Below, piece by piece: positions 1 through 44,776 of a DNA stretch of 64,000 bases. Each line of letters opens with the position of its first letter. The first letter of the stretch is position 1. The stretch is from assembly GCA_014871385.1 (NCBI GenBank), contig CM026431.1, positions 1,176,137 through 1,240,136 of the forward strand, read 5' to 3'. The notes beneath the pieces are model-generated. The model was given only the letters and a program-made list of their open reading frames with translations. It was not told the DNA's origin and ran no database searches. Position numbers and translations under genes: made by a program. The stretch is from Ceratodon purpureus (Eukaryota; Streptophyta; Bryopsida; Pseudoditrichales; Ditrichaceae).

Positions 1-740
1 ACTGACCAGAGCTGGAGCCCTCAGCAACTGTCCTCGGCACCGAGGCATTATGCCAAGGGCTGCGAGGTTGCTTCAGTGGGCCCCAGAGCAGCAAGAAGAA
101 CATGATGCACTCATCACAGTTGGAGCCCTCAGCAGGAGCCCTCGGCACCGAGGCGTTTTGCCAGGGGCTGGGAGGTTGCTTCACAGGGCTCTAAAATAAA
201 CATGAAGAACTACATGCACTGACCAGAGCTGGAGCCCTCAGCAACGGTCCTCGGCACCGAGGCATTATGCCAAGGGCTGCGAGGTTGCTTCAGTGGGCCC
301 CAGAGCAGCAAGAAGAACATGATGCACTCATCACAGTTGGAGCCCTCAGCAGGAGCCCTCGGCACCGAGGCATTATGCCAGGGGCTGCGAGGTTGCTTCA
401 CAGGGCTCTAGAATAAACATGAAGAACTACATGCACTGTCCAGAGCTGGAGCCCTCAGCAACTGTCCTCGGCACCGAGGCATTATGCCAAGGGCTGCGAG
501 GTTGCTTCAGTGGGCCCCAGAGCAGCAAGAAGAACATGATGCACTCATCACAGTTGGAGCCCTCAGCAGGAGCCCTCGGCACCGAGGCATTATGCCAGGG
601 GCTGCGAGGTTGCTTCACAGGGCTCTAGAATAAACATGAAGAACTACATGCACTGTCCAGAGCTGGAGCCCTCAGCAACTGTCCTCGGCACCGAGGCATT
701 ATGCCAAGGGCTGCGAGGTTGCTTCAAGAGGATGCTCATA
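1..740 (-). repeat. Intronic tandem repeat, 108/109-bp monomers forming a 217-bp dimer
   Basis: About 3.4 copies of a 217-bp higher-order unit. The core CTCGGCACCGAGG recurs at about 33, 141, 250, 358, 467, 575 and 684, so spacing alternates 108 and 109 bp. Each monomer contains a 6-bp inverted repeat CCTCGG-CA-CCGAGG followed by a GCCAAGGGCTGCGAGG motif. The array abuts the splice donor at 768 of the minus-strand ParB-like gene and therefore lies in its next intron. Strand is given as that of the host gene. Confidence 0.9.
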
Positions 741-768
741 GTAAACTAAGTGATGATAAGAGAATTAC

Positions 769-14600: not shown

Positions 14601-15928
14601 TTGTAAGGGCGTTCATGCAATGCGTTGCCTACTTCCAGTTCTTGAAGGGGGAGCGTCCCGGGAAAGGTCCGTCAAAAGAAGAGCTCAGCCTCCGACGTGC
14701 ACAGAGATCTGCAGCAAGGACAGGGAACCCGAAGGTCCTACATGAAGCGATTATGAACATGCCAGGAGCGGGCGAGTGGTGCACAAGGGACCCGCATCTC
14801 GAAGGGGAGGAGGTCTGTGTCTCACTAAAACGAAAACCTGATGTTGCCTTCGGAGATGAACGAGAGTCTCATAGGCCAGACAAGATCACCGTGTCAAGAC
14901 CTCGTGTCCAGACTAGAGCTGCACGTCTGGAGAGCGACTACCCTCCGACGGTGGTAATAGCAGACTCTCCTACAAGCACTGAAGCGGACGAAGCCGACCT
15001 CCACCCTGAGCACTGTCCACCTCCAGTCGAGTACCATCACGTCACTTCAGTTGAAGAGACCGCCTGCAACCCTTCCGAGTGGCACATTGCACGACTTCCT
15101 AAGACGTCCGCTAAGGCTTGCTTCGCCCAACACGCTGTGACTAAGAAGAAATGCGTGGCACGAATTGTGCAGCACGGGAAGAGCACGGCTGCGCCGACAT
15201 ACACAGGCCCCATGAAGAACTACCAGAAGGACAGAATAGAGACTCATCAGTTCTTTTTCTGCAATGACGACATTGACAGGTGCGTCAAGGGTAGCAAGCG
15301 GAAGTGGGTACTATCGGTGCCAAAGGTACCTGAGGTCTGGCCTGTGAAGATTGGGACGAAGTTGACGAAGAAAGAGATCCTCTCTCTAGAGAATGCCGGC
15401 TTCAGACTCCCTCAACTGAAGGAGATGTCACCAAGAAGACTCTTCCAAGACCGGGCCGCGGCAGTGGACCTCTCCGCCTACCCTACGCCGGCATACCCGG
15501 ATGAGTTCCCTACCCGGCGATCAGGGAAGCTCATCCGACGGAACAAGAAGGCCCCGTCGACCAAGCATAGCAATAATTGTGCCTCTGCCTTATCGTTGAA
15601 CGCGAAGGTCAGCAAGCTTTGCATGCTGCCTGCCCCAGCCCTGGGATGCATTGTCACATTGGATTCTGGGAAGCCTCCAAAGGTACAACAATACTACCTG
15701 ACCATTTCGCAGCACCCTGCCTGCACTTGCCCAAACTTCAAGGAGATGGCAATGACGGCACTTGGGAAGCGGGGTCAATGGGCTAATTGTAAGCATTTGT
15801 ACTACCTTCTCAGTGTAGTTTGCGGTCTTGATTCGGAGTCGGATACATTCATTCATGCAGCTAGTTTTAGCTTCAACGAAGTCAAGCGAGTCCTAGAGAG
15901 TGGCCTTTTGAAGCACCTGGAGAAGTAG
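11629..15928 (+). CDS. MULE-like transposase with GCM/WRKY-type zinc finger and SWIM domain
   Basis: Proposed exons 11629-11645 (five codons plus two bases), 11717-13832 and 14477-15928, giving about 1194 residues; the splice phases agree. If the tiny first exon is wrong, translation can start at the ATG at 11718. The N-terminal third is low-complexity Ser/Pro-rich. Next comes a Cys/His cluster (SCLGHLRCDNVKCEYL, CKSCSTPPTC, HFGTHNHPV) like GCM/WRKY/FLYWCH DNA-binding folds. A MULE DDE-type core follows, with FMADGAQANWN and RTCLFHWRQS. Exon 2 opens with CNLAESIHNRW, typical of MULE transposases, and ends with a SWIM zinc finger (CTCPNF ... ANCKHLYYLL). The frame is intact and stops with TAG-TGA. 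It may be an autonomous Mutator-like transposase or a domesticated FAR1-type regulator; I could not delimit terminal inverted repeats. Confidence 0.82.
13900..14440 (+). repeat. Intronic tandem repeat, 107-bp variant of the same family
   Basis: Five cores CTCGGTG(C/A)CGAG at about 13957, 14064, 14171, 14278 and 14385 (spacing 107 bp) fill the single large intron of the MULE-like gene. The reverse complement matches the repeats of the ParB-like gene across AGTCCTCGGCACCGAGGC and GCCAAGGGCTGC. Relative to transcription, the repeat therefore has the same orientation in both genes. Confidence 0.92.
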
Positions 15929-17532: not shown

Positions 17533-17577
17533 TGCTCGCGCCCGTAGGCACGCGCACGAGCACTCTGGCGCGCCAAC

Positions 17578-17642
<65 letters not shown>

Positions 17643-17702
17643 TTTTTTTTTTTTTTTGCGCGCGCCCGCGTGCTCGCGCGTGTGCCTACGGGCGCGAGCA
17701 AA
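17533..17702. repeat. GC-rich inverted repeat enclosing A60T19
   Basis: The left arm at about 17533-17562 (gctcgcgcccgtaggcac...) is the near-perfect complement of the right arm at about 17669-17702 (...gtgcctacgggcgcgagc). Between them lies a run of 60 A (17579-17638) joined directly to 19 T (17639-17657), itself able to pair. The arms share the word GCTCGCGCCC with the minisatellites inside the hAT element. Confidence 0.85.
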
Positions 17703-17821: not shown

Positions 17822-19767
17822 GTGACTACACGACAATTTTATGGCCCGTCCGTCTATTATGACAACCCTGACCAAGACCAGCAGAACAAGACAAGAGGGG
17901 ACCAGGGAGAAGACCAAGACCAGCAGAACAAGACAAGAGAGGACCTGGAGGCAGACCAAGACAGTGCAGGCCTTAAGGACCAGGACCAAGACCAGGACAA
18001 CAATTTTTTTAAGGATCAGGAAGCAGACCAAGATGAGCGGAGCAGGAATAGACATGACCAGGACAGCAAAAATGAAGAGGGACAGAACAAAGATCAGAAG
18101 CAGCAGAACATGAGGGAAGAGGGCCAGAGTTCAGAAAAAAGATATGAGGGCGAAATACAGGAAAAAATAATAGAAAAAATAGAAAAAAAAGATGAAGTAA
18201 TCAAAAAAGGGGCAGGAGAGAAAGAAAGGAAGCAGCTAGCAGTATTGTGCGGGGTAGTGGGAATCAGCTCTCTAAAACATGAACAACATATAGGATAGCA
18301 GGAGGAGCTCTGTGAGCCAAGAGGAGGAGGCAGCCAAGGTTACAGTAGGAGCAGTTGCCAAGGCAGAGAACAGCAAGAGCTTAGAGACCAGGAGCAAGAG
18401 CTTGAAGACCAGAAGAAAGAGGTTGGAGACCAAGAAGATGAGGCAGCAGCCAAGATAGAGGACCAGAAGAACGGGAGTCTGGAGAAGGACGAGCAGGACA
18501 CCAGTCCAAATGACCAGGAAAAGAGAGTGGATAGGTTGGACCAGGAAAACAGGGACCAGCCAAGGTGGACCAAAGATGGAGGAGGTGAGAAAAATAAAAA
18601 AGAGAAAAATGAAGGAACTGACCAAGAGAAATGGGACCAGCAAGAAGTAGAACAAGAGCAGCAAAGATCCAAAGACCAGGCTAGGATGCCACAGGAATCT
18701 AGAAGAGGACATCAGGGAAAAGGATGTGGGGCCAGGTGAGCAGTCCAGTACTGATCTCCAATAGTCCAGAGTTGGTGTTAGTATCGACACCCTCCAGGCA
18801 GCAGCCAATTTCAGAGGGCCAGCACCAGGACCAGCCCCGGGAGCAGTCTCAGGAGCTGCCCCCGGATCAGGATGTCGAGGACCAGGTACAGGGGCAGGAT
18901 CCCATGGACCACCAGGATGAGCCAGTTGTGGATTTTCCCACAAGCTCGGTAGGGACCAGGATTCAGCCAGGACCAGCAGGGATGGGGGACCAGGAGGATG
19001 TCACCAAGGAAGTGGACCAGTTGGTCCAGCAGTTGCAGGTGGCATTGGCCCAAGCATCTCGGGTGCAGATGTTACAGGGGCAGGAGGACAGGTCTGGACC
19101 GACTTACCAAGTGTTGTTGACCACCAGACAGGCCCAGGAGGAGCAGATTCGGCAGTTCACTGACCAGCTGCAGCAGGCTCAGCACCAGCTGGTAGTACTC
19201 CAGGAGGACCAGGACAGGGAGAGGCAAACTTGGGTGGATCAGGGGGTCCAGGCAGAGGCAGTCAAGGCCCGGAGATTGGAGTTGGAGGCCAGGACCAGTG
19301 CCAGGTTCAGGGACTTTGATCGGCTGGCCAGGGAGAACCAGCAGCTCAGGCAGAGGGTGGAGTTGGCTAAGGCCAGTTCTACTCAGGCTTCCAGGGGGTT
19401 GACCAGGCATCTGTTGTCTACCTCCAAGAAGCAGGTACTGGACGTGATTCAGGCCTACTCAGAGGACCAGGCCAGGTACTCTAGGTATTTGATGAGGTTT
19501 GCTGAGGCTTATCCATCTTTTGTGTACTAGTCTGAGGATGACCAGGATGAGGGGGACCCGGAGATGCCTGATGGGGGGCAGTTTGCGGAGGATGGAGGGG
19601 CTTCCAGCAGTGGCCTGGGGACCACTTCTGTTATTGGATCTCAGTCAGGTGATGGACCAGCAGGTACCGCTCTTGCTGTACCACCATTACCAGCACCACC
19701 AGGACCAGAGGCAGCACCAGGGGGACCAGCATCAGCAGCAGGAGGGGCGGCACCAGTTAGTGGCTAG
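17822..19767 (+). pseudogene. Asp/Gln-rich, gag-like coiled-coil coding relic
   Basis: Open stretches at 17822-18298 and 18724-19530 are dominated by the hexamer GACCAG/CAGGAC read as Asp-Gln. The second (268 residues) looks like a coiled coil (LVQQLQVALAQ, QIRQFTDQLQQAQ, LARENQQLRQRVELA) of the kind found in plant retroelement gag regions. It ends at a TAG at 19528-19530. The same frame then stays open to 19767 through acidic and Gly/Pro/Ala-rich sequence, so the stop is either a lesion or a readthrough site. The frame is broken near 18299. No protease, reverse transcriptase or zinc knuckle is visible, and LTRs were not found. The gag assignment is by resemblance only. Confidence 0.4.
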
Positions 19768-28398: not shown

Positions 28399-28803
28399 TA
28401 AATTGTTGTAGTCTTAAAACGTTCCACGCAAGCCTACAGATTGACCCCCCCGAACTCCTACGCTACCTTCGCATACAGCACAGAATGCCAACGACTGTGT
28501 CACTATCCAAATACGCCACGTAGAAACAAGCTCAAGAAACCAAGTGTGGCCTCCTTCTGTGGAACCCAGCTTACCAAGTGTTGTTTCATGATGAGAAACT
28601 CTTACTTGTATCACTCAAATGAAGAAGCTTCGCTGCCTAGGAAGAAAGAGAGCAGTTAAGATATTATACACAAATTTTGAAATATTCCTGGAAGTTTTCA
28701 AACCTTGCCTCCTTTATGTTCTGTGAAATTTGTTTTTTCCCTTGTGCATTTACATAATCCTAGGAAAGAATTATTTGTTTGATCTAAAACTCAACGCCTG
28801 ATC
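28399..28803. other. Intergenic flank of the hAT insertion
   Basis: No gene or repeat is seen apart from the left copy of the hAT target duplication, GCCTGATC at 28796-28803. Confidence 0.5.
28796..28803. repeat. hAT target-site duplication, left copy
   Basis: GCCTGATC, identical to 41017-41024 and immediately outside the CAGGGTTGT terminus. Confidence 0.92.
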
Positions 28804-29019
28804 CAGGGTTGTCTATTCGGACGGACATGGGCAAAATTTCCGGACATAGACGGACGGACGGACGGACGGACCGGTCGGTCCCCGGACATACTCGGACATT
28901 GAGGGGAGGAGGAAAATTACTAAGTTAGTTTTTTTTTTTACAACTTACCTATAGGGGAAACATATTGATGACATGGACAACGAACGATGACGGGGAATTC
29001 CACATATGCAAAAGGGGTG

Positions 29020-29272
29020 CCAGCATGTGTAGGGGGCGAGAGCGGGTTCAGGGGGGCGCGAGCGGGTTCAGGGGGGGGCGCGAGCGGGTTCAGGGGGGGC
29101 GCGAGCGGGTTCAGTGGGGGGGGCGCGAGCGGGTTCAGGGGGGGGGGCGCGAGCGGGTTCAGGGGGGGGCGCGAGCGGGTTCAGGGGGGGCGCGAGCGGG
29201 TTCAGGGGGGGGCGCGAGCGGGTTCAGGGGGGGGGGCGCGAGCGGGTTCAGGGGGGTTCAGGTAGATAGTAA
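29020..29272. repeat. GC minisatellite block 1 (in hAT)
   Basis: About ten units of GGGGGGCGCGAGCGGGTTCA, with G runs of variable length, on the plus strand, about 220 bp inside the left terminus and downstream of the RING gene. Apparent ORFs through it are low-complexity artefacts. Confidence 0.92.
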
Positions 29273-29514
29273 ATTTTTGACAATGCAAAAAAACCTAACA
29301 TTTTCATCAGAATAATATATTGGGGCTAAGCGCAATGACAAAAGTGTAAATTCAGCATAGAAAAAATGAGATACTCGTGAGCCAAAATACATGGACTTTG
29401 CAAAGTTGTATACATTTATGAAAGTAAAAGCATTTCATTACCAATTCAAACCAAAACATTACAAAAACTGTAGTATATGAAAACTAGTCACTTAGTACTA
29501 AGTTGTAACTATTC

Positions 29515-31893
29515 CTATTCATCTGCATCTACTCCCGCTATGCCACTTGGTCCCGCTCCATCGTCCAGCGTCAAGCTGCGCCTGGCTCTCGTCCGTGTTC
29601 GCCGGAATGGGCCATCACTTTCACTGAGAGAACGCAAAATTTGCGAGTTCCTCAATTCTCTCAATGTACGCAATGTCTGTGGAGAGTGTTCCTCCAGAAG
29701 AAAGTCAACAGCCTCATGTTTGAAAATTAACTTCCACTCCGAAAGAGACATTTGGACTGCATCACGGGCGGTCAAAGACATGAATTGACCTTCGAGGTCT
29801 GTAACCAATTCCCCGTCCTTGTTCCATATGAGGCCTTTTGGGTGATTACCAAGTTGGAACTTCCTATGCTTCGGATCCCAGTATCCATTCAAAGTCTGAT
29901 AGAAGAAATTTCGTTTTCCTTGGTCCTCCTTCTTTGATCCAATTATCTTCTTTGCCACCCTCACAATCTGATTGGGGTCATCCTCCCATCCCAACTCGTC
30001 ACTTACATTGCTCTTGAAGACCGAGTGAGTCTGGGCCCGCCAACTCCAAATCAAATCTTCCCCCCACATGTTGCGGTACTGTTCACCTGGTGTGTTTTCG
30101 GGATTTTTCTCATGGCTTGGTGGCATGTATGGAGTGAGTCCAAAAACCTCGTACAAGCGTTCATGGAACGGGGATTTGCACACCGGGCAAAATCTCCTTA
30201 CCAAAAAAATGTTAATTAAACACATAGGATGGAACATGTGGGTACATGATCCAACTGCCCATCCACCCTCAGGACCAAATGGATTTATACACACAGGGCA
30301 TTCTTTTGAACCATCCATCACCCACGGTTGAGGATTTGGCCAAAGCTTTCTGCTATTAACTCCTTCCTTCATTTGAAGATCATGGCACGAAGTTGCGTTT
30401 ACATCGAAATTCAACTTGGCCCAATCTATGAGTTCAGGATTCGATTCTTGCTTTGCCATGGTATCTGGATACATATCATCTGCGTTAGTCCATGAAGTGA
30501 GGCCAAAATTCCTTCGTTTGTTGTGTTGCAAGTACGATTCGTCGATCTTCTTGAACTCTAATGCAATTTGGCGACCGCGATCAACGCTGAGAATGGTTGC
30601 CACTTTCCACTCGTAGTATGCTTTAGCAAACTTAGAAACAAGGAGCCGCAAATCATTATTGGCTCTCTTCAATGTCTCCACTTCTCCCGTTAGAGCATCG
30701 GGTGGAAATGACAAGGAATCTTGACTTAATGGTCCATCGATGTCCACATAGGGTCGCGGGTATGGGGCTGGTGGAGGCAATATCACTCCAACTCGTCGTC
30801 GTTTTGCTGGAGTGGAAATATTCTCCAACACACCGGCCGTTGCAACATCAACCGTGTTGTTGATGTAAGATTCATCCACCAACATTGGATCTTGAACTAC
30901 AGGTATATCATTGGCTTGAGAAGACTGAGGTCTTTCTCGTTCTTGCAATTGATTGCGCAAATCTGATATTACTGCATCTTTTGCTGCTGATTCCAATCGT
31001 AGTTTTCGGATGGTCTCTTGTAACTCTGCAATGAAGCCATCCTTTTCTATTAGCTGTAATTGTAACTCCCCGACCTCCTCGGTCTGGTTAGACTGGTCAT
31101 TTCTAACTAGAACCGGCATGCCAAGAACCATCGTAGGTTCAGTTCCGACCACGTCCAAATTAGCTGCCGTATTTGGATCGTTTTCCACGAAGATGTTGTT
31201 CGCATCGTCGTGAGGTTCTATGACGTCCGCTGGATGGTTCACTGGAGGCTCTACAGCCATATTTGCTGGTGCTGCAATTCTACGTGGTGGACGTTCTCCA
31301 CGACGACCATCGGAATCAGAATCTGGTTCAGACTCTGCTGTATCAGGCTCCCGCACTTGTGTTTTTTCCTTCATTTTTTTCCCCAGGCCACCATCTGCGT
31401 ATTTCCTTTGTTTGGGAATGTCACGCTCTGTCGGCGCCCTAACACTCGGCGTGGATTTGATGGTGGACCAATCCACCACTTTGTGAAGCACCACCTCAGC
31501 ATACACCATTCTGCAAATGAACAATGGTACTTCATTGCGTTCAACACATCGTTGCTTGTATAGATGCTGGTAAACTTGTATAGAACGTTCAACAAACTCC
31601 GCATTCAAGCAATAATAGAGGTTAGCCTTGTCTGAGATCCTGTGTTTTCTGTGCCGATCATGTGGAAATATTTTTGTGATGTGGCACCACTCAATGAATT
31701 CCTCGCATGTGGAATATTTCCACGGTTCCGGCTCATCTTGCCAACCTCTAAATGCCAACTTTGTGGGGTTGTTCAGCACATGGAGCCGCTTCTTCATCTT
31801 CTTGCCACCACGCTTCCGTTCACGATCTCTGATTTTCTTCTTTTCGGCCTTGGTGAGTGGCCTTTCCTCCGCCGGATCTGGGTTTCCCTCCAT
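29515..31893 (-). CDS. RING-finger protein carried by the hAT element
   Basis: A single-exon 792-residue ORF. The N-terminus is strongly basic (KAEKKKIRDRERKR, GGKKMKKR), followed by a conserved-looking globular region to about residue 150 and an acidic Ser/Asp patch (ESEPDSDSD). A short coiled coil (LQLIEKDGFIAELQETIRKL) and a nuclear-signal-like AKRRRVG precede the RING. The RING domain spans about residues 532-572: CPVC at 532-535, then CTHMFHPMC, then CPVC at 569-572, giving a plausible zinc-binding set. About 220 further residues have Trp-rich motifs (WGEDLIWSWRAQ, LNGYWDPKHRKF). RING domains usually mark E3 ubiquitin ligases, so a role in protein turnover or in host-transposon interaction is possible but only inferred. 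Its promoter is at 32228-32235, next to a GC minisatellite. Confidence 0.8.
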   Translation of the reverse strand: MEGNPDPAEERPLTKAEKKKIRDRERKRGGKKMKKRLHVLNNPTKLAFRGWQDEPEPWKYSTCEEFIEWCHITKIFPHDRHRKHRISDKANLYYCLNAEFVERSIQVYQHLYKQRCVERNEVPLFICRMVYAEVVLHKVVDWSTIKSTPSVRAPTERDIPKQRKYADGGLGKKMKEKTQVREPDTAESEPDSDSDGRRGERPPRRIAAPANMAVEPPVNHPADVIEPHDDANNIFVENDPNTAANLDVVGTEPTMVLGMPVLVRNDQSNQTEEVGELQLQLIEKDGFIAELQETIRKLRLESAAKDAVISDLRNQLQERERPQSSQANDIPVVQDPMLVDESYINNTVDVATAGVLENISTPAKRRRVGVILPPPAPYPRPYVDIDGPLSQDSLSFPPDALTGEVETLKRANNDLRLLVSKFAKAYYEWKVATILSVDRGRQIALEFKKIDESYLQHNKRRNFGLTSWTNADDMYPDTMAKQESNPELIDWAKLNFDVNATSCHDLQMKEGVNSRKLWPNPQPWVMDGSKECPVCINPFGPEGGWAVGSCTHMFHPMCLINIFLVRRFCPVCKSPFHERLYEVFGLTPYMPPSHEKNPENTPGEQYRNMWGEDLIWSWRAQTHSVFKSNVSDELGWEDDPNQIVRVAKKIIGSKKEDQGKRNFFYQTLNGYWDPKHRKFQLGNHPKGLIWNKDGELVTDLEGQFMSLTARDAVQMSLSEWKLIFKHEAVDFLLEEHSPQTLRTLRELRNSQILRSLSESDGPFRRTRTRARRSLTLDDGAGPSGIAGVDADE

Positions 31894-32227
31894 CGTGGTG
31901 TACTGGTAAAGTTTTCTGTGTTAAAAAACACACCAACTCCTCAAAACTTCCCCCAATTGATTTTAAAATTTTCCTCGGTGGTTGATTATGGTATTGTAAC
32001 TATACTTTGTGGCCCACCCAAGTATTCAGCAATAAGCCACCATGAGGTAGTTTAGGGCCCGAATTCCCGGATGAGCGTACAAAATAAGGCTGAAAGCTGG
32101 TACGTGGCGTTGTCAAAATACTGAAGACCCCACCCAAGTACTCAGCAATAAGCCACCGTGAGGTAGTTCAAGGCCTGAGTGCCAAGGTGGAGCTAAAAAA
32201 AGTGGGGGGGGGAGGGCGCCCCCTTCA

Positions 32228-32235
32228 CTTATATA
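32228..32235 (-). promoter_or_regulatory. TATA box of the RING gene
   Basis: TATATAAG on the minus strand, within ACTATATAAG, about 335 bp before the ATG at 31893. A GC minisatellite abuts it on the upstream side. The kinase gene has the same ACTATATAAG context. Confidence 0.65.
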
Positions 32236-32530
32236 GTCGGGGGGGGGGGGGGGGGGGGCGCGAGCGGGGTCGGGGGGGCGCGACCGGGGTCGGGGGGGCG
32301 CGAGCGGCTGAGGGGGGGCGCGAGCGGGATTAAGGGGGGGCGCGCGCGGGTTTAGGGGGGGGCGCGAGCGGGTCTCGGGGGGGGGGGCGCGAGCGAGGCA
32401 GGGGGCGCGAGCGGGTATGGGGGGCGCGAGCGGGTATGGGGGGGGGCGCGAGCGGGTTCAGGGGAGGTGCGCAAGCCGGTATGGGGGGGCGCGAGCGGGA
32501 TCAAGGGGGGGCGCGAGAGGGTCCCCCCAT
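32236..32530. repeat. GC minisatellite block 2 (in hAT), upstream of RING gene
   Basis: About twelve units built on GGGGGGCGCGAGCGGG on the plus strand, with interspersed variants (gcgcgaccgggg, gcgcaagccgg). Confidence 0.92.
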
Positions 32531-32894
32531 AAAACAAACTCTCATTTCCTTAGGAGTATCATTGAAGAAGGTTGGAAGACAATAATAAAAACAAATGCAA
32601 TGGATTTTTTCACCACTTCTCTCTAAAATAAAATTAAAAATTAAAAATTAAAATGGGATATGAAAATAAGGAATACTGATTTGAATAATTTGGGGATGAG
32701 AAATCAAATTATAGAAAAACAATCATGACTATAATAAGGGACTCGGGATAAAAAGGGATGAATAACATGGGATGAAAGAAGTTATCAAGATGAATAAATG
32801 TCATGGTGGTTAGAAACTGAAATATCCCATAACGGAATACTGATCTAATGCACCATGAATAATATAAAGTTGACTACAAGAAAATTAGTGTATT
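32531..32894. other. AT-rich spacer in hAT
   Basis: No gene is supported. The sequence is an AT-rich lead-in to the 214-bp repeats. Confidence 0.5.
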
Positions 32895-33960
32895 AATATT
32901 AGAATAAAATAAAAAGAATAGCATGGTGTGGAAGAGAGTTCGATTAGAGTTTTAAAAAATAAAAAATATAATGCATTGAACATATGGATCCTACAATGCT
33001 CTAACATATAAAAAAAAAAAAGAATCATAAAGAAGGGCTCGATGCAATTGGTTTGGCATATAAACGGAAAAAAATTAAATCAATAGCATGGAGTGGAAGA
33101 GATAAAAGGAATAAAATAAAAAGAATAGCATGGTGTGGAAGAGAGTTCGATTAGAGTTTAAAAAAAATAAAGAATATGAAGCATTGAACATATGGATCCT
33201 ACAATGCTCTAACATATAATTAAAAATATAAAGAATCATAAAGAAGGGCTCGATGCAATTGGTTTGGCATATAAACGGAAAAAATAAAATTAAATCAATA
33301 GCATGGAGTGGAAGAGATAAAGGGATTAAAATAAAAAGAATAGCATGGTGTAGAAGAGAGTTCGATTAGAGTTTAAAAAAATAAAGAATATGAAGCATTG
33401 AACATATGGATCCTACAATGCTCTAACATATAATTAAAAATATAAAGAATCATAAAGAAGGGCTCGATGCAATTGGTTTGGCATATAAACGGAAAAAATA
33501 AAATTAAATCAATAGCATGGAGTGGAAGAGATAAAGGGATTAAAATAAAAAGAATAGCATGGTGTGGAAGAGAGTTCCATTAGAGTTTAAAAAAATAAAG
33601 AATATGAAGCATTGAACATATGGATCCTACAATGCTCTAACATATAATTAAAAATATAAAGAATCATAAAGAAGGGCTCGATGCAATTGGTTTGGCATAT
33701 AAACGGAAAAAATAAAATTAAATCAATAGCATGGAGTGGAAGAGATAAAGGGATTAAAATAAAAAGAATAGCATGGTGTGGAAGAGAGTTCCATTAGAGT
33801 TTAAAAAAATAAAAAATATGAAGCATTGAACATATGGATCCTACAATACTCTAACATATAATTAAAAATATAAAGAATCATAAATAAGGGATCGACGCAA
33901 TTGGTTTGGGAGATAGACGTTTTACAATTAAATCAATAGCATGGAGTGGAAGAGAGGCTA
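32895..33960. repeat. 214-bp AT-rich tandem repeat, about five units
   Basis: The word gcatggtgtgg recurs at 32921, 33128, 33343 (as gcatggtgtag), 33557 and 33771, spacing 207, 215, 214 and 214 bp. Each unit also contains a related half-unit gcatggagtggaagaga, suggesting an older dimer. It lies between the divergent RING and kinase promoters inside the hAT element. Confidence 0.9.
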
Positions 33961-34113
33961 GAGCTGCATGAGAGGTTGTGCAAGAATAAAATCCCAATAC
34001 TTTGTATTTTTTAATTTGTTTTATTTTATTTTTTTCTCTTAGAAAGTAGTGTAGAGATTTCACTATTTCCAGAAGAGAAATAGAAAATAAAAAATGAGAT
34101 CTAAAACAAATGG

Positions 34114-34328
34114 AAGGGGGGGGGCGCGAGCGTGTCTGAGGGGGCGCGAACGGGTTGGGGGGGGGCGCGGACGGGTATGGGCGCGAGCGGGTACAGGGGC
34201 GCGAGCGGGTGGGGGGGCGCGAGCGGGTACGGGGGGGGGGGGCGCGAACGGGTATAGGGGGGGCGCGAACGGGTATAGGGGGGGCGCGAGCGGGTTCAGG
34301 GGGGGGGCGCGAGCGGGTCCGTGGGGAC
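34114..34328. repeat. GC minisatellite block 3 (in hAT), upstream of kinase gene
   Basis: About nine units of GGGGGGCGCGAGCGGGT on the plus strand, ending directly at the kinase TATA box. Confidence 0.92.
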
Positions 34329-34336
34329 TATATAAG
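34329..34336 (+). promoter_or_regulatory. TATA box of the kinase-like gene
   Basis: TATATAAG in the context GGGACTATATAAGG, 158 bp before the ATG at 34494 and touching the minisatellite. Confidence 0.7.
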
Positions 34337-34493
34337 GTGGGGAGAAGCTCTCGCCCCCCTCACTCCTTCCCACTGCGGCTCCTTGTCCTGACGTGTGAAA
34401 ACACGCCTTGCTTGGAACTGCTTATGTGGGAAGTCTTCATTGGGGCGGGGGGGGGGAAGTTGTTGAATTTTTTTTTCAGGGATTTACTTTGCG

Positions 34494-36074
34494 ATGTCTT
34501 CTAGACAAGGCTCCGGCAAGCGGCCTATGTATGTGGACTTGGATGCTCCAGATGCGGTGGACCCTATGAGTTGCGTAACACCTCATGGTTCTAGTGGTTC
34601 TACTCCTTCATCTAGCTCGAAGGGTAAAAAGAAGAAGAGTATACCAGCGCACGAGAAGGATGACGGTTATCCACCATTGGAGTATACGCATTTCATCAGG
34701 AAGGTGGCCGTCGAGTACTACAAGGCCCGTACCATACGAATGTTGAAGGCAATGTACCTTGATCATGGAGAGAATGGTATCTACAACCTCCAACGTGATT
34801 TGGAAAGGGAATTTTGGAGCGCATTGGAAGGATCAGAGATGTACATGGATTGCAAGACGAAGTATTTTCACAGCCCGAAGTGGTTGACACAACAAGTGAG
34901 TAGTGCTACGACAAATGTCATTCATGTGTTTGAATCACATGTCAAGAAACCACAAGGCGAAGAATGGAGCAACCAAGACAAAGTGTTTATTCAAAAACTG
35001 ACAACGGTTCAGGAGGCATGTCAGAGATGTTCTAAGGGGAAAACAAAGATTATGCCTTGGAATGAGCAAGCATTGAACTCAGCATTGGAAGCACACATGT
35101 ATGGTGCATTGATATGGATTCCGGTTACGGCCAAGGTTGTGCCATTATCTGGCTTCAATGCCGAGGGGGGGTATGGCAAAGTGCGAAAAGTGCGAATAGC
35201 CAATATGAAGAAAATTCCAATTCACATAGAATTTGCGGGAAAACTTTCCAAGGCTAAAACCGAAGTGAAGAAGCGAGAGGAACGGGCGATTGAGGCCACG
35301 GTTAACCCCGTAGAGCATCCGGGTGTGATAAAATTTTGGGCCATTCACGCTAAGACCATGGAAGCTTATACCCTGTGGTGGAATGGAGATTGTCTCCGCA
35401 ACTTCCTCAAGATAAATGAGAAGGCATCCGAGGCAATAGATTACAAAGAAATTTTGAAGTCGAGGGATATGCCCATGGAAGAGTGCCAAAGAATTGTTGC
35501 CTACCGAAAGAACCGGGGAATGTTGGCGTGGAGTCTCATCTACGTTATGGACATAGTCCATAAGGCTGAAATCCTCCACAACGACTTAACGCCATCCAAC
35601 ATTCTACTCCACTTTCCACCTCATGACAAGAATAAAGTATATATTGGTGTGTGCGATTGGGGTGTGGCAAGCAGAGTCATTGAGAACAAGGCCTCCCCTT
35701 ATGGTGTGATGGACCCCGATGAACTTGTACAAGTAAAGAAGAGGAGGGTAGGAGTTGCACCGGAGTTGTTCTTTTTATATGGCAAAAAAGATGATGAGGA
35801 ACGGAATTTGGAGCGCATGAAGAGGATGCATCCATGTACGACGCTATCTGATGCATTTTCGGTAGGCCATTTGGCAAAGACAATATGGAGAGAAGAAGAT
35901 TGCCCGGAACTCTTCAAGGATTCAATCTCAAAGATTGTATTCTCATCAAAGTTGGATGGCTTGCTTAACGAAGATCCTACAAAGAGGCTTTCACTTGCAA
36001 AAGTTGTGAATGATTTGATGAGCCCCCCTTACAACTTCCAAGCTCCCAATGGTTGTTTTAGATACACATTGTAG
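34494..36074 (+). CDS. Protein-kinase-like protein carried by the hAT element
   Basis: A single-exon 526-residue ORF. Residues about 60-215 form an unknown N-terminal domain (YTHFIRKVAVEYYKARTIRM, PKWLTQQVSSATTNVIHVFE). A kinase fold follows: glycine loop AEGGYGKV near residue 223, the usual VAIK lysine in FAGKLSK near 249, catalytic loop HNDLTPSN at 362-369 (HRD altered to HND, but the aspartate and the downstream asparagine are kept), metal-binding DWG at 388-390 in place of DFG, and APE at 422-424. A C-terminal ARG-like segment reads DPTKRLSL. The key catalytic residues are present, so activity is possible. The substrate is unknown. It lies co-directionally 0.8 kb upstream of the transposase, which suggests stable cargo rather than chance capture. 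Confidence 0.82.
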   Translation: MSSRQGSGKRPMYVDLDAPDAVDPMSCVTPHGSSGSTPSSSSKGKKKKSIPAHEKDDGYPPLEYTHFIRKVAVEYYKARTIRMLKAMYLDHGENGIYNLQRDLEREFWSALEGSEMYMDCKTKYFHSPKWLTQQVSSATTNVIHVFESHVKKPQGEEWSNQDKVFIQKLTTVQEACQRCSKGKTKIMPWNEQALNSALEAHMYGALIWIPVTAKVVPLSGFNAEGGYGKVRKVRIANMKKIPIHIEFAGKLSKAKTEVKKREERAIEATVNPVEHPGVIKFWAIHAKTMEAYTLWWNGDCLRNFLKINEKASEAIDYKEILKSRDMPMEECQRIVAYRKNRGMLAWSLIYVMDIVHKAEILHNDLTPSNILLHFPPHDKNKVYIGVCDWGVASRVIENKASPYGVMDPDELVQVKKRRVGVAPELFFLYGKKDDEERNLERMKRMHPCTTLSDAFSVGHLAKTIWREEDCPELFKDSISKIVFSSKLDGLLNEDPTKRLSLAKVVNDLMSPPYNFQAPNGCFRYTL

Positions 36075-36289
36075 TTCCATAGTGAATTACGTTTGAAACA
36101 TTTTGATTGCCTATGTGGCCTTGTTTGCACATTTCGAATATTTTAATAAATCGTTTTTTCGGCGTATACATGCCTTGGTGGAACATGAAATGGTATTGTT
36201 GGTTTTGTAATGGAATGAAAAATTGTTTTTTAAAAAAAAATGAAAAAACTGTATGGCCCATTCACCGGGACTGCCCCTCGTGCAAGGGT

Positions 36290-36722
36290 GCCTCCCCCCT
36301 GAACCCGCTCGCGCCCCCCCCTCTGGAAGCTCGCGCCCCCCCCTTCCAGAAGCTCGCGCCCCCCCTCTGAGAAGCTCGCGCCCCCTTTGCAGTAGGTTGC
36401 GCCCCCCCCCTTGAAAGAGCTCGCGCCCCCCCTTGGAGAAGCTCGCGCCCCCCCCCCTTGGAGAAGCTCGCGCCCCCCCCCCCCCTTGGAGAAGCTCGCG
36501 CCCCCCCCCCCTCGGAGAAGCTCGCGCCCCCCCTGTTGGAGAAGCTCGCGCCCCCCTGGAGAAGCTCGCGCCCCCCCTGGAAAAGCTCGCGCCCCCCCCT
36601 GGAAAAGCTCGCGCCCCCCCCCCTGGAAAGAGAAGCTCGCGCCCCCCCACCTGGAGAAACTCGCGCCCCCTGCACACGCTCGCGCCCCCCCCGCCCGGAG
36701 AAACTCGCGCCCCCCCTCACAA
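36290..36722. repeat. GC minisatellite block 4 (in hAT), upstream of transposase gene
   Basis: About eighteen units of roughly 24 bp built on GGAGAAGCTCGCGCCCCCCC, now C-rich on the plus strand. It ends at a TATA-like TATAAATG (from 36724). Confidence 0.92.
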
Positions 36723-36927
36723 GTATAAATGCCACCAACTTAGCCCAAGCCCAATATCATTTGAAATCATGGCCTCTAGTCCCGGAACTCCTTGTGGGCT
36801 CCTTGCTTGAGACTATGTGCATCACATTGGCCTGTGGTTGATGTCTACACATACCATTTTTTTCTCACATGTGTCATACTAACACTTGCAGACAGGAGAT
36901 CATTGTACTTTTTCAGAGACACGGAGA
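36723..36927 (+). promoter_or_regulatory. Transposase leader with TATA-like box and intron acceptor
   Basis: TATAAATG begins at 36724. A textbook intron end (tactaac branch-like motif followed by acttgcag) lies at about 36876-36890, so the 5' leader is probably spliced before the ATG at 36928. The donor is not certain. Confidence 0.5.
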
Positions 36928-39900
36928 ATGGCAGGTCAACAGCGTCAGTCGACGGCTGAGTGGGCTCCGTGGTGGACGTTCATTGATAAGGACCATGTGA
37001 AATGTGTGTGGTGCAATTTCACCTTTCGTTATAAACGACAAAGAGCTTTCAAGCACTATGGATGGGGTGAAGGTTCAAGCAAGAGTCATTGTACCAAGGC
37101 CCCCGCCGCCGTATTTAGGCGCTTTGCCAATTGTGGTAATGTAATACCAAAAAGAATGACACATGCGGAGATATACGGCACTGATGGTGGTGATGGCGAG
37201 GCACACTTGGCACACTTGGCACCATGTTCTAGCCAGTCTATGCCTGCTGAGCAATCTACGGAAGTGCCTCAGAGAACGGAGGAGGTCCAAGAGGAGAGGA
37301 TTCCCCAAGTTCAACCGTCTCAGTCAACTCCGCCTATAAGCAGAGGCGATTCATGTACACCAAGATCTATGCGGCAACAAAGTTTTACCGAGGCCTATCA
37401 GATTGGGATGCGCAATGAATTGGATGAGAAATGGGCGTCCTATTTTTATGAAGCGAATGTGCCTTTCAATGTGGTTAGGCATCCATCTTTTATCGCTGCT
37501 GTGGAGGCAACATCGAAAGCGGGTTTTGTGTACCGTCCACCAGCATACAACGCAATGCGAACCAAGCACATCCAGCCAACAAAGCAGCTTCTCAAGTTGA
37601 GAATAGAGGAGAAAACGAAGCAGTGTATTAGCTTGTACGGGGCAACTATTTGCTCGGATGGATGGGACAACGTTGTTCATCGGCCGTTGATGAATGTCAT
37701 GCTTGTGTGTCTAGCAGGAGATATATTCCTGGGTTCCATTGATACAATGGGGTACAAGAAATCAAAGGCATACATAGCTGGGAAATTGAAAGAGTACATC
37801 AAAGAAGTTGGACCGCAGAATGTGGTACAGATTTGCTCCGACAATGCTAGTGCGATGTTGGGAGCCATGGACCAGGTGGTTGAAGCTTATCCTCACATTT
37901 ACAAGCAAGGTTGTGCAGCTCACATCATGGACCTCTTACTAGAAGATTGGGGGAAGGAAGCAACCTTCAAAGAGCTGATTGCCTTGGCAAAACGCATACC
38001 AAATTTTATACGTCGCCGTCATGTCACCATGGCTTTGTTTCGCCAATTCAGCCCGAAGTTGTCTCTGTTGTTACCAGCGGAGACAAGATTTGGATGCTCG
38101 TACTTGATGATTGTTCGATTGCTTGAACTGAGGGAGGCACTAATCCAGGTGGTAGCCAGTCCGAAATGGGACGAATATGTGGGTACTTTATTCAATCGGT
38201 CAAACGGGTATCGAGCTCACACCTTAGCATGTCAAGTACGGAGTACCATTCTCGATGAGACATTTTGGTTACGTTGTGAGAATCTTGTGCATGTTATGAA
38301 GCCGGCTGTTGTGACCTTGAAGACATTTGATGGACAAACACCGGCAATGGGGAGGGCATGGTTGGCCATGAATAATTTGAAGAAGCATGTGTTCCGTCTA
38401 CGGGGTGATCCTTTTTTCCTAGACCCCGCTATAGCAGATCGCTTTGAGAAACATTTTACGAAGAGATGGAAGATGATGTTGACAGATCTCCATTACGCAG
38501 GCGCCATTTTGAATCCCTACATTTTCCCGGAGAGCCACGAGCTATTGACTAACAGTGCTGCGAAGCGTGCACTCCTGCAAGTGCTAATTCATTTGAGTGA
38601 GTGCCTTAAACTGGACCACGATACTGTGTTGTTTGAGCTAACACAGTTTGAGGAACGCACCGGTCCATTCAGCCCTTTGGAGGCCCCAAACATTCGACAG
38701 ACTAAGATGCTACCTCATCAATGGTGGCAGCGGGTTGGGGGCGATGCGTTACCGTTGATAGCAAAGCGCATCCTTTCGTTAACATGCTCGGCATCATCAT
38801 GTGAGCGAAATTGGAGCATGTATTCCTTTGTTCACAGTAAGGTTCGCAACCGATTGGCCGTGAAGAAGGCAGAGGACTTGGTGTACATTTACACGAACAG
38901 TAAGCTCCTTCGAGAACGACGTGGAGCGGATCCTGTTCTTTGGTACGAGAACCAACCGTTCTCCGAAGACTCGGATGAAGAAGTGCCAGCCATGTACGAT
39001 GAAGACGAATGTGATGATGATGGAGATGAAGGATTCCACGACGGACTTGAAGTTAATGAAGGCGATGGTGATGACGGTGGAGTTCATTACACTCCTGCTA
39101 CTATGGATGATGAGTATCCAGAGTTACCCGTGGACAATGGTGATGGTGACATGCCACGCACTGAACCCGTTAACCAGCCGAATGGAGTTTTTGACTGGGC
39201 AGGATTTGATGAAGAGGCAGCTACTTCGCCTCACCACGTTGTCAATGAAATACAAGCTAGAGGCGAGGTCGCATACGATCGAGCAGACGATGATATTGAC
39301 GATGAATTTGAAGTCGAAATGACTCAGCATCAAAGCGACGATGGTGGCAATAATGATGACATTTACCCCGTTCGTAGCGTTTCGAACAATGACAATGAAG
39401 AAGGGGGTAACAACATAGGAGAGCAAATTCCAATTCCAGAAGACGTTGAGGGAGGAGAAGAAGTTGAACAACTCCAGGCCACTCTGCCAGTAAATGTTGA
39501 GGAAACAATCAGGTCTGGAGGTTTGGATGAAAGCCCTCCAATAAATGAACAATCAGAGACAGTCAGAAATGGACAAGAAGATGAAATTCCTATTGGCCGA
39601 TTGTTTCAAACACCCCTGCCCCAGAGTACACCTTCAATCGGAGCAGTACTTGCAGGGTTGGGTCGACCCCCCCCACCTCGTTCAAACACTTCTACTGGGC
39701 ATGGTTCATTAACTCCAACACCGAATACAAGCATTCCACTCACTTCTTCTGGACGAAGTCTACCAGCTGGACCTTCTACGACGCGTCATGGAGTGATACG
39801 GTCACGGAAAGGTCCAACAAACGTTCGCCCTTTTTTTTCAGGATATACTGTTGGAACTACCCCGTCTGTACCTGTGGCTTTGGGTAAACGTAGATTACCC

Positions 39901-40212
39901 GTAATGAATGTGGACGGAATCACCGATAAGACCAAAAGACGGAAGATCAAAAGAATTGTGACCACGGTGGTGGATGGTACAGTTGACCACGAAATTCGCA
40001 ACATTCATTCCACGGTGGAGGAGTATGTGCCTAATCAGGGGGGAGATGGAGATGACGAGGGGTCGAAATCCTCAGAAGGATATTACTCATCAGAAGAAAG
40101 CCGTGAAGAAGCACCTGATGATGAAGACATTGTTGTAAGAGTACCATTGGGTAAGCCCGGTACTCGAAGGAATCCAGAGCGGCGCACCGCCAAAAAAAAC
40201 AAAAAAAAGTGA
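36928..40212 (+). CDS. hAT transposase with BED zinc finger and DUF659-type core
   Basis: About 1094 residues from the ATG at 36928 (MAGQQRQSTAEWAPWW); an in-frame ATG at 36886 precedes the predicted acceptor and is less likely. A BED-like zinc finger starts at CVWC (residues 26-29) and continues with HYGWGEG and SHC. The DUF659/hAT core includes GATICSDGWDN (about residue 240) and VQICSDNASAM (about 300), which carry the expected acidic residues, then GCAAHIMDLLLED. The hAT dimerisation region is WWQRVGGDALPLIAKRILSL ... SSCERNWSMY ... VRNRL (about 598-650). An unusual acidic, low-complexity tail of about 430 residues follows, ending in basic KKNKKK. It is intact and is the likely mover of the surrounding element. 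Confidence 0.9.
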   Translation: MAGQQRQSTAEWAPWWTFIDKDHVKCVWCNFTFRYKRQRAFKHYGWGEGSSKSHCTKAPAAVFRRFANCGNVIPKRMTHAEIYGTDGGDGEAHLAHLAPCSSQSMPAEQSTEVPQRTEEVQEERIPQVQPSQSTPPISRGDSCTPRSMRQQSFTEAYQIGMRNELDEKWASYFYEANVPFNVVRHPSFIAAVEATSKAGFVYRPPAYNAMRTKHIQPTKQLLKLRIEEKTKQCISLYGATICSDGWDNVVHRPLMNVMLVCLAGDIFLGSIDTMGYKKSKAYIAGKLKEYIKEVGPQNVVQICSDNASAMLGAMDQVVEAYPHIYKQGCAAHIMDLLLEDWGKEATFKELIALAKRIPNFIRRRHVTMALFRQFSPKLSLLLPAETRFGCSYLMIVRLLELREALIQVVASPKWDEYVGTLFNRSNGYRAHTLACQVRSTILDETFWLRCENLVHVMKPAVVTLKTFDGQTPAMGRAWLAMNNLKKHVFRLRGDPFFLDPAIADRFEKHFTKRWKMMLTDLHYAGAILNPYIFPESHELLTNSAAKRALLQVLIHLSECLKLDHDTVLFELTQFEERTGPFSPLEAPNIRQTKMLPHQWWQRVGGDALPLIAKRILSLTCSASSCERNWSMYSFVHSKVRNRLAVKKAEDLVYIYTNSKLLRERRGADPVLWYENQPFSEDSDEEVPAMYDEDECDDDGDEGFHDGLEVNEGDGDDGGVHYTPATMDDEYPELPVDNGDGDMPRTEPVNQPNGVFDWAGFDEEAATSPHHVVNEIQARGEVAYDRADDDIDDEFEVEMTQHQSDDGGNNDDIYPVRSVSNNDNEEGGNNIGEQIPIPEDVEGGEEVEQLQATLPVNVEETIRSGGLDESPPINEQSETVRNGQEDEIPIGRLFQTPLPQSTPSIGAVLAGLGRPPPPRSNTSTGHGSLTPTPNTSIPLTSSGRSLPAGPSTTRHGVIRSRKGPTNVRPFFSGYTVGTTPSVPVALGKRRLPVMNVDGITDKTKRRKIKRIVTTVVDGTVDHEIRNIHSTVEEYVPNQGGDGDDEGSKSSEGYYSSEESREEAPDDEDIVVRVPLGKPGTRRNPERRTAKKNKKK

Positions 40213-40300
40213 TACATCTATTAGCATATTACATATAGAAGTTATATAGAGAAAGTATAATATATATGTCTCCAAAATAATTTTAAAAAAACACAAAAAA

Positions 40301-40331
<31 letters not shown>

Positions 40332-40504
40332 CTAAATTTTATACGTAGATACTTATATGTTAACCTTAGTCAATGTCCATAAAACATTAGCTAAGGCTAT
40401 TGAATGTAATTTTGTTTCGACATGAATTGAAACTTCTCTCATTTATGTCACTGTGAAAAATTCAGTAGTGTCTTAATTTCCTTCAGTGGTTGATTCTTGT
40501 TCCC
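40213..40504. other. AT-rich 3' flank of transposase with (TA)n
   Basis: An uninterrupted TA microsatellite lies at about 40303-40331. No gene. Confidence 0.6.
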
Positions 40505-40815
40505 AGCTCGCGCCCCCCCCTTCGCAGGCGCTCGCGCCCCCCTTTCGCAGGCGCTCGCGCCCCCCCTTCGCAGGCGCTCGCGCCCCCCCTTTGCAGGCGC
40601 TCGCGCCCCCCCTTCGCAGGCGCTCGCGCCCCCACCCCAAACCCCTTGCTCGCGCCCCCCTGCAATCGCAGGCGCTCGCGCCCCCCCCCCCTCGCAGGCG
40701 CCCGCGCCCCTCCCAGTCGCTCGCGCCCCCTCGCTCGCGCCCCCCTTCCCAAGACGCTCGCGCCCCCCCTCTCACGTGCTCGCGCCACCCTCACTCAAGG
40801 CGTTGGCGCCCTTCC
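40505..40815. repeat. GC minisatellite block 5 (in hAT)
   Basis: About twelve units of roughly 24 bp with core GCAGGCGCTCGCGCCCCCC, C-rich on the plus strand, ending about 200 bp inside the right terminus. Confidence 0.92.
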
Positions 40816-41016
40816 TCTTAGCCACGTCATCCCCCAAGTCAACAATATTTGGTGACATGTCAGACGCGTGGCATCCTAGGTGGCCAAGGTAACTCCCATT
40901 TCACCATTTGGGTGGTCAACCGTAAGTCCTGGTCAAACGGACCTCCCCTGACCCCTAACGGACGGACGAGCGGACCGGACGGACGGACAGGTCCTTTTGT
41001 CCCATGAACAACCCTG

Positions 41017-41024
41017 GCCTGATC
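41017..41024. repeat. hAT target-site duplication, right copy
   Basis: GCCTGATC directly after the terminal ACAACCCTG, matching the left copy exactly. Confidence 0.92.
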
Positions 41025-42218: not shown

Positions 42219-44776
42219 TTATATTTGGCGAAAGCAGTTACCTACACGGATGATGGCGTTGCGAACATCCCTTTTCAGAATGTGTCGTATTGCAGCAGGT
42301 AATATATGCTGGATCAAAACATGATGATCGTGGCTTTTCATGCTAGCCAGTTTCTTCTCACCAATATGCTTGATGAGAATTGAGCTAAAACGAGAAGGGA
42401 CTTTGGTGTGTGATACCAAAGAAAGAAATGACTCCTTCTCAGCATCAGTGAAAACATAATGCGCTCTAGGTTTGATGTAACTTGTATTTGTTTCTCATAG
42501 CCATAATGACTTCCGGGGGTTGCTTTCGCTGTAGTGAGTGACTTCCTCCATGTCACGGCGTAGTGCAATTGTGTCTTTTTCACCAAATAAATGCCTAAGG
42601 ATGTTGTCAGAGATATTTCTCTCAATGTGCATTACGTCTAGCGTATTGCGAATGGGCAGAGCCTGCATTACATTATAAGACCACTTAATTTTAGTTACAA
42701 CATCCCTGCTAAAATCCATAGTCATGGTTCACTAAGGCATAGATATTTAAATGCTAGCATTGTCCATATCATGGACTCCTCCCGAATGACAAAAATGACA
42801 AAGACAGATAAAAAAGGCCTAAACCTGCCAATAAGGAAGCTTGAACAGAGAGCTGATTCTCTTCACTCCAAACCTGCGTGCTGGGTCATCGGACTTAGGT
42901 GCCGCCCCCCTGTCTACCCATCCCTGCCTCAAACTGCCCCAACGTAGGACTTCATCGGCCGTGACCTGTCGAGGCCTATCGCGCAGCTCAGCCCTTCCAT
43001 TGAACTTGTCCACATATGCTGTACGAAGTGGATGACCGGTGGGAAGAAACCTCCGAGCTTGACAGTCGTAGCAATTTTTTTTTAAAGCTCTGGATCCTCT
43101 GGAAATTGTGATTGGTCCACAAATTGGAGATGCTCAATATTCCTTTGTCACGCATCCACTCACGATCCCATAGGCAGGGAAATCGTGAATGGTCCACAAC
43201 ACACTTGCTCTCATCAAAAACGATTCCTGATCGTTATAGCGAGCAGCGTCCTGAACTTCTATCCCAATGTTCCACAGAGTAAGCAGCTCCTCAAGGAGAG
43301 GCTCTAGATAAGTATCGATATTCTCTCCTGTGACACTAGCCCGACCTGGTATAATGAGGGATAAGATGATGAAATGCCTTTTGGTCAACATCCAAGGGGC
43401 CAAATTGTAAATAGTAAGCATTACAGGCCAAGTGCTCCAGGTTGAACATTTAATAGAAAAGGGGTTGACCCCGTCAGTGGCAATACCTAGTCTCAGATTC
43501 CGATCTTCCGCAGCGAAAGCGGGATCAAAGTTGTCTAGTGCTCTCCACTGCGGGGAGTCAGTTGCGTGGCGCATGTATCCATCTTCGCTGCGATTGCGAC
43601 TATGCCAGGTCATTAACCATGCCTGCAGAGGCGTGCTGTACATACGCTCTAACCTGGGTATGAGAGGAAACCATCGTAAAACCTTCACGGGCACTGAACT
43701 CTTCCCCACATCCCGATACCTCTCTGCGCCACAGATTGAACATTGTTTCAATTGCTCGTTCACAGGGCCCCGGAACAACATGCACGTATTGGGTCCTGGA
43801 CATACATGTATTGTTTCGTACGCCAATCCGAGTTGTTTGAGAATTTTGGATGCCTCGTACTCTGATTTTGGTAGGGAATTAATACCTGGTAACATGCTCT
43901 TGTGCAGGAGAGCGAAGACCTCGTCCACGAGCTGATTGGATGCACGGTGTGTTCTCAGACATGTGAGTAACAGGAGGATGGCGCTGAGGGATGACAAAGA
44001 TGCACCCGCAAATAGAGGCGTTCTCGCAGTTTCCTCAAGAATCTCTTGCTCTGTCGCAGGGGGATCCTCCATGCCTCTTAGGTCGTCATTGTGAAATTGT
44101 TCCGGCCCGTTCTCAACGTCTGCAGCTGCTTCCACCGGAGATCCAGGTGCGTGCACTTCATCCACATACTCACTAGCAACAATGACCGGATCCTGCTCTC
44201 CGTCTGAATTAGTTCCATCGTCCATGTCTTCATCGGGCATGTCCATTCCTCCTAATCCCCCTCCTCCGATATTGTCATATATATGAAATGCATTCTGGAC
44301 CATACCAGCCATGTCCATGTCTGCGTCCAGCCTCGTAGCGTCTCCCTCCGTAAAAGCTGTTCCCCTCAAACCGTAACTCTCTCGGATTTTGGTATCCCAC
44401 TCAACATCAGAGTCGTGTCTTGGGAACCCCTACATCATGTCCATACTTAATTTGTTAGGGGCATCCTTTACAAAACCTAAAGGCGCAATGCAAGGTATAT
44501 TCCTGATTGAACAAACAAAGTAAGCTTGCATGATATTACTCACCTCGGTGCTCCCCCTGTGAAACGGGTGACGCCCATATGTTCTCAAGTGCCTTGTTAC
44601 CACACTTCGCAGTCGTAGGGAGTGGTTCTCTCCAACACAAATATTGCATTTGCACACTCTTCTCAGCCAATGTTCCCTATCTGCCAAGAGCTCCTCTCGT
44701 GCGTTCAGCTTCCTGTCTCTCTGAATTTGCCTCCTTCGATCATGCAACGGAAAACGCACATCCTGCTCCATGAGAT
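42219..44776 (-). pseudogene. CACTA-type Tnp2 transposase, broken by two in-frame TGA codons
   Basis: Three exons in one frame: 44776-44544 (start ATG at 44771; CNICVGEN ... HLRTYGRHPFHRGSTE), 44429-42825 and 42662-42219. The middle exon carries an acidic linker, LLHKSMLPGINSLPKSEYEA, the Cys pair CSICGAERYR, WHSRNRSEDGYMRHATDS, LGIATDGVNPF, WPVMLTIYNLAPW and TIHDFPAYG, then a zinc-cluster-like region (NCYDCQARRFLP) and KLPYWQ. The third has LDVMHIERNISDNILRHLFG and MKSHDHHVLIQHILP. These are the ordered landmarks of Tnp2 (PF02992-type) transposases. TGA codons at 43134-43136 and near 42495 interrupt the frame, and one zinc-cluster Cys appears as Ser (ASPIC). The C-terminus stops early at 42219. 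Probably inactive, although only two lesions separate it from an open frame. Confidence 0.83.

Follow-up and report, generated by a model that had tools for sequence, protein, structure and literature searches.

A hAT transposon of the moss Ceratodon purpureus with kinase and RING-H2 genes beside its transposase

Transposons of the hAT superfamily end in short inverted repeats of the CAGGG type. DNA transposons can also carry enzymes beyond the transposase: in rust fungi, TET genes are described in hAT7 elements, and TET together with alpha-kinase genes in IS3EU elements (PMC12730594). The Arabidopsis protein VANC is presented as a sequence-specific anti-silencing factor with tandem-repeat targets (PMC10398659). 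Here we analyse a window of 64,000 nucleotides from Ceratodon purpureus (assembly GCA_014871385.1, contig CM026431.1, positions 1,176,137 to 1,240,136). Its positions 28804-41016 are a hAT element of 12,213 bp with three open genes, for a RING-H2 protein, a protein kinase and a transposase. The element has been inserted many times, and both extra genes recur with the transposase across the family. Judging from sequence, we hold it probable (about 0.8) that this is an autonomous cut-and-paste hAT transposon whose two accessory genes are under selection.

Boundaries, copies and recurrent cargo

The boundaries of the element are proven by the target-site duplications (TSDs) of its other copies. 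The flanking 8-bp sequence GCCTGATC is identical on both sides, and 20/20 other elements, fetched at both ends, are bordered by exact 8-bp duplications, each of them different, as is typical of hAT transposons. These 20 are all the copies for which the RING locus and the transposase were both listed, none being left out. With these 20 duplication pairs and lengths of 11,584-18,715 bp, nested elements or an assembly artefact are ruled out. The 9-bp terminal inverted repeats CAGGGTTGT agree in 9/9 bases and are of the CAGGG type; by themselves they are no proof, since CAGGGTTGT with at most one mismatch is found 12 times in the window against 13.8 expected, not above chance. The subterminal motif GGACGGAC has 8/10 of its exact window matches inside the element, five near the left end and three near the right. 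An earlier sequence-only reading of this DNA had described the inverted repeats, the exact duplication and the subterminal clusters, and all of them hold.

We searched the window's own assembly (362,488,568 bases, 151 contigs). For the 23-base left end we count 133 exact copies (0 in a reversed control), and for the 37-base right end 198 copies at ≤2 mismatches; the two numbers are not comparable because their stringencies differ, and shortened copies are counted in both. One such shortened derivative (L004) consists of the element's left 453 bp, followed by DNA resembling the kinase-transposase intergenic region, with no RING gene.

Copies of the genes were scored for the best 57 of 1754 RING, 82 of 1418 kinase and 42 of 1547 transposase candidates, so that the totals are lower bounds, biased towards good copies. 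Among them 53, 80 and 38, respectively, are without a stop, and the copies are full length or one to two end residues short; a RING codon pattern marks 75 places in the genome. Listed copies stand at 97-100%, and several have identical or near-identical proteins with all genes open, which points to a probably recent and perhaps active family.

Kinase and RING genes lie in window order and orientation beside 36/42 scored transposase copies, and RING is upstream in 41/42. We are thus dealing with a family with recurrent cargo, not with a single capture. The sequence-only reading had proposed this search for joint recurrence, and the finding it named as fatal to itself, transposase copies everywhere devoid of the cargo, did not occur. 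RING stands beside 59/82 listed kinase copies; when the RING places were shifted at random 500 times, the count never exceeded 2 (a control using a guessed length for contig C9). Among the matches listed, 72/82 kinase copies adjoin at least one correctly oriented element end, RING or transposase. Left ends sampled irrespective of protein score lead into RING in 7/8 cases and, in a second set, in 11/16.

Older copies are preserved in decayed form. A codon-variant pattern reveals 6 further kinase places, all on contig C6. Where they match, the four C6 kinases that we read have 76-89% DNA identity, with a synonymous divergence (dS) of 0.18-0.49 and an omega of 0.42-0.48 in 4/4, and all are broken by stops and gaps. 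Downstream of 3/3 decayed kinases tested there are transposase remnants in the same order, with 68-83% protein identity over the longer matches. Kinase and transposase have therefore long been together; the association of RING lies outside this test.

Predicted proteins and probable selection on the accessory genes

All three genes of the window copy are open from ATG to stop, just as had been read from the letters alone. The kinase has, by its sequence, the beta3 lysine, HxD, DxG and APE features of active protein kinases (FAGKLSK, HNDLTPSN, CDWGVAS and VAPELF), and the five motif strings are all exact in 18/21 copies. Its best relative in the PDB is the PRP4 kinase, at a weak 0.0016; NCBIfam gave nothing beyond weak kinase matches far under the cut-off, and structure prediction without an alignment reached a mean predicted local distance difference test score (pLDDT) of 32.8. 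The RING protein has the C3H2C3 zinc-ligand spacing (CPVC, CTHMFH, CPVC) and is a putative RING-H2 E3 ligase. The transposase combines a hAT core with a C-terminal dimerisation domain, as indicated by DUF659, Dimer_Tnp_hAT and the match to Hermes. Of the D, D and E residues that we take to be catalytic, the first D and the E align with Hermes; the second D is present as SDNAS, outside that alignment. At 38899-40212 the protein continues for some 430 amino acids past residue 657, where its hAT dimerisation match stops; this extension is acidic-rich, with basic stretches at 987-1009.

Codon usage correlates at 0.59-0.75 among the three genes, versus at most 0.49 with seven other open reading frames of the window. 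Two of the three correlations (0.74 and 0.75) exceed the maxima of a composition-only null (0.57 and 0.62).

Shared variants of both accessory genes look constrained by selection. For RING, in 11 copies chosen by their left ends plus the window, they number 23 nonsynonymous to 24 synonymous against a neutral 2.86:1 (0.34 of neutral, p 2e-4); for private variants the ratio is 69:37 (0.65, p 0.025), with 8 stops. A smaller set (7 left ends plus the window, C-terminal 270 codons) gives 5:6 for shared variants (0.26, p 0.03). In 29/30 copies of the protein-ranked list the ratio is low for private (31:33) and for shared variants (17:19) alike, which the ranking itself favours; L014 was left out, its start not being found. 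For the kinase we drew 20 of the 82 listed copies across the protein-ranked list and added the window: over these 21 copies, shared variants are 21:18 (0.41, p 0.006) and private ones 39:26 (0.53, p 0.01). The neutral ratios follow the observed mutation spectrum with CpG context not included and the copies are related, so these p-values are approximate.

Repeat arrays, promoters and neighbouring features

The motif GCGCGAGC has 55 matches in the window, 51 of them within the element, where they form five arrays, A1 to A5, on the plus strand in A1-A3 and on the minus strand in A4-A5. The presence of a single repeat at each end and each promoter suggests that the arrays have a binder in common. 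A1 holds 5-10 motifs, on the plus strand only, in 30/30 copies, and A2 holds 7-12, likewise plus only, in the 29/29 copies where it was located (30 examined). Right-end stretches of 601 bp from 20 copies show the motif in window orientation in 17, in the opposite one in 1 and absent in 2; in the reversed stretch (L062), all 10 motifs are opposite to the orientation of the other 17 copies. In 255 A1 units from 30 copies, the GGGTTCA after the core is 96-100% constant and the preceding G-run varies in length. The 8-base core was itself the search word, so its own constancy proves nothing.

The sequence-only reading considered the promoters to be built alike. Each TATA box lies 14-38 bp from a GCGCGAGC array; RING and kinase share the box CTATATAAG, and the transposase has TATAAA. 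The five arrays themselves, and the second related family end described below, were absent from that reading.

Table 1. Coordinates of the element's features within the window.
Feature	Position	Strand	Remarks
Left target-site duplication GCCTGATC	28796..28803	.	8/8 identical to right copy
Left terminal inverted repeat CAGGGTTGT	28804..28812	+	9/9 bases matched with right end
Left subterminal GGACGGAC cluster	28819..28871	+	Exact matches
Array A1, GGCGCGAGCGGGTTCA units, subterminal	29032..29256	+	Outermost motif 252 bp from end
RING-H2 gene, 792 aa	29515..31893	-	Pfam zf-RING_2 2.8e-6; RNF24 in PDB 2.3e-6
RING TATA box CTATATAAG	32228..32236	-	Present in 28/30 copies; promoter not located in one of the other two
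Array A2, RING promoter	32252..32522	+	22 bp from RING TATA box
AT-rich tandem repeat of five 214-bp units, RING-kinase interval	32905..33955	.	
Array A3, kinase promoter	34118..34318	+	14 bp from kinase TATA box
Kinase TATA box CTATATAAG	34328..34336	+	
Protein kinase gene, 526 aa	34494..36074	+	Pfam Pkinase 2.1e-10; HND, DWG, APE motifs
Array A4, transposase promoter	36307..36716	-	38 bp from transposase TATA box
Transposase TATA box TATAAA	36724..36729	+	
hAT transposase gene, 1094 aa	36928..40212	+	Pfam DUF659 1.2e-31, Dimer_Tnp_hAT 1.4e-6; Hermes in PDB 2.1e-4
Subterminal array A5, in opposite orientation to A1	40506..40790	-	Outermost motif 231 bp from end
Right subterminal GGACGGAC cluster	40960..40988	+	Exact matches
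Right terminal inverted repeat CAGGGTTGT	41008..41016	-	9 bp
Right target-site duplication GCCTGATC	41017..41024	.	Exact

Elsewhere in the window, a second hAT-like family, related to this one, has an end (CAGGGTTGTCATAAT) at 17846-17870 on the minus strand, its body reaching to about 16831, with GGACGG and GCGCGAGC motifs. This end resembles the element's left end with a similarity of 68; none of 775 random places exceeds 44. The genome has 314 ends of this family at ≤2 mismatches, 54 of them exact and 37 of these on C6; four of its ends at an exact spacing of 2,877 bp (G000:C6:31171910-31180565) look like a tandem duplication. In one copy (L095), the initial 7 kb contain nothing homologous to the three proteins (best E 0.31), so this family does not extend the trio. 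Within its end region in the window, an inverted repeat at 17533-17700 surrounds 60 consecutive A and, after them, a T run.

An open frame at 43134-44429 (minus strand) matches Transposase_21 (tnp2, CACTA-type) at 3.5e-52. Units of 107-109 bp that carry a CCTCGGCACCGAGG-like palindrome form long arrays at 1-9043 and 13956-14416, and two large open reading frames near them (11664-13874 and 14468-15928) have no Pfam match. The window yielded no hit in Rfam or tRNA scans.

Competing explanations and known relatives

We propose that an element protein, most simply the transposase, would bind the GCGCGAGC arrays, the two subterminal and the three promoter-linked ones alike, and that this binding would couple expression with transposition. 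With less assurance, a host silencing factor or the element's own transposase may be the substrate that the kinase phosphorylates and the RING E3 ubiquitinates, and this modification could keep the element expressed. We put forward these specific targets only tentatively. The same reserve applies to the whole picture, which is possible rather than probable: a plant DNA transposon with its own signalling module, a kinase-RING E3 phosphorylation-ubiquitination switch on host silencing or the transposase, wired through one element-specific repeat to three promoters and both ends. If the two enzymes do control silencing or transposase activity, this would be an experimentally accessible transposon that regulates itself and its host by protein modification. 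In a probably recent and perhaps active family, transposition and silencing are directly testable.

Several observations weigh against an autonomous element with selected accessory genes. Among the 42 scored transposase copies, 5 have no kinase beside them among the 82 matches listed, and 1 lacks RING. No full-length RING follows 5/16 sampled left ends, and only 4 of the 11 left ends leading into RING are free of stops and gaps. The private RING ratio of 0.65 is not clearly apart from the shared class (Fisher p 0.07), and in the smaller end-sampled set private RING changes are neutral (12 nonsynonymous to 3 synonymous, 1.25). Ranking the kinase list by protein score favours few amino-acid changes. 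The kinase-transposase codon correlation of 0.59 falls inside the composition-only null (maximum 0.61), and bootstrap medians of the codon correlations are 0.43-0.57. Finally, A5 is reversed in one copy.

Some of this would agree with an ancestral hAT having taken up kinase and RING by chance and then amplified, both genes being neutral riders: the listed copies at 97-100% could come from one recent burst, and there are the neutral-looking private RING changes just mentioned. We nevertheless find such a capture improbable, given that shared variants are constrained in both genes, that kinase and transposase already adjoin in the decayed copies at dS 0.18-0.49, and that all three genes have a promoter architecture in common. 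The constraint on shared variants and the gene order of the decayed copies argue against random passengers and support the proposal of the sequence-only reading that kinase and RING are accessory factors; their targets remain conjecture. Still further from likely is a benefit of the two genes to the host, in defence or stress for instance, in return for which the element is tolerated. The intact catalytic motifs and the high copy number would fit, but 72/82 listed kinase copies adjoin an element feature (the other 10 could include a host copy), and the decay of the older C6 copies does not suggest upkeep by the host.

A separate alternative concerns the arrays, which might act only as chromatin insulators, GC-rich and CpG-rich, keeping the promoters unmethylated with no element protein bound. 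Their CpG observed/expected ratio (0.79-1.44, the remainder of the window having 0.69) and the opposite orientation of A5 in one copy speak for it, while the constancy of GGGTTCA in the A1 units and a motif strand that follows the element half in the window speak against it; we consider insulation alone rather unlikely.

In the literature searched, no paper on a hAT element that combines kinase and RING genes came up, though the main genome paper or Repbase may mention one; the main text of a 2026 review of plant gene capture (PMC13317346) has none of hAT, kinase and RING as whole words. Relatives in viral contigs and prokaryote genomes were not confirmed, which has little weight since these are non-plant collections. 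Lanisha elements reportedly occur in the Ceratodon purpureus genome. They are described as EnSpm-like and belong to a clade whose TSDs measure 2-5 bp (PMC12730594), and identity with them is excluded by the hAT transposase and the 8-bp TSD found here.

Plant hAT elements of the Ac/Tam3 kind share with this one the 8-bp TSD, short CAGGG ends, DUF659 and hAT dimerisation domains and subterminal repeats; they differ from it in that ours has two extra genes, a size of 12 kb, a long C-terminal extension of the transposase and promoter-linked GC arrays. VANDAL elements belong to the MULE superfamily. Among the Pfam matches of our kinase and RING protein, which are RING, coiled-coil-type and kinase families only, there is no VANC-like family (under what we take to be the VANC domain name). 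Common to VANDAL elements with VANC and to ours are an accessory protein beyond the transposase and, as described for VANDALs, rapidly changing noncoding tandem repeats (PMC10398659). The rust fungal hAT7 and IS3EU elements are alike in that accessory enzyme genes reside in DNA transposons, in an order that is sometimes conserved, IS3EU having a kinase gene; they are unlike in their fungal hosts, their 7- or 6-bp TSDs, and in encoding a TET dioxygenase and an alpha-kinase where the moss element has RING and an ordinary Pkinase (PMC12730594). As DNA transposons with accessory enzymes are already described there, the element of C. purpureus extends a known kind (PMC12730594).

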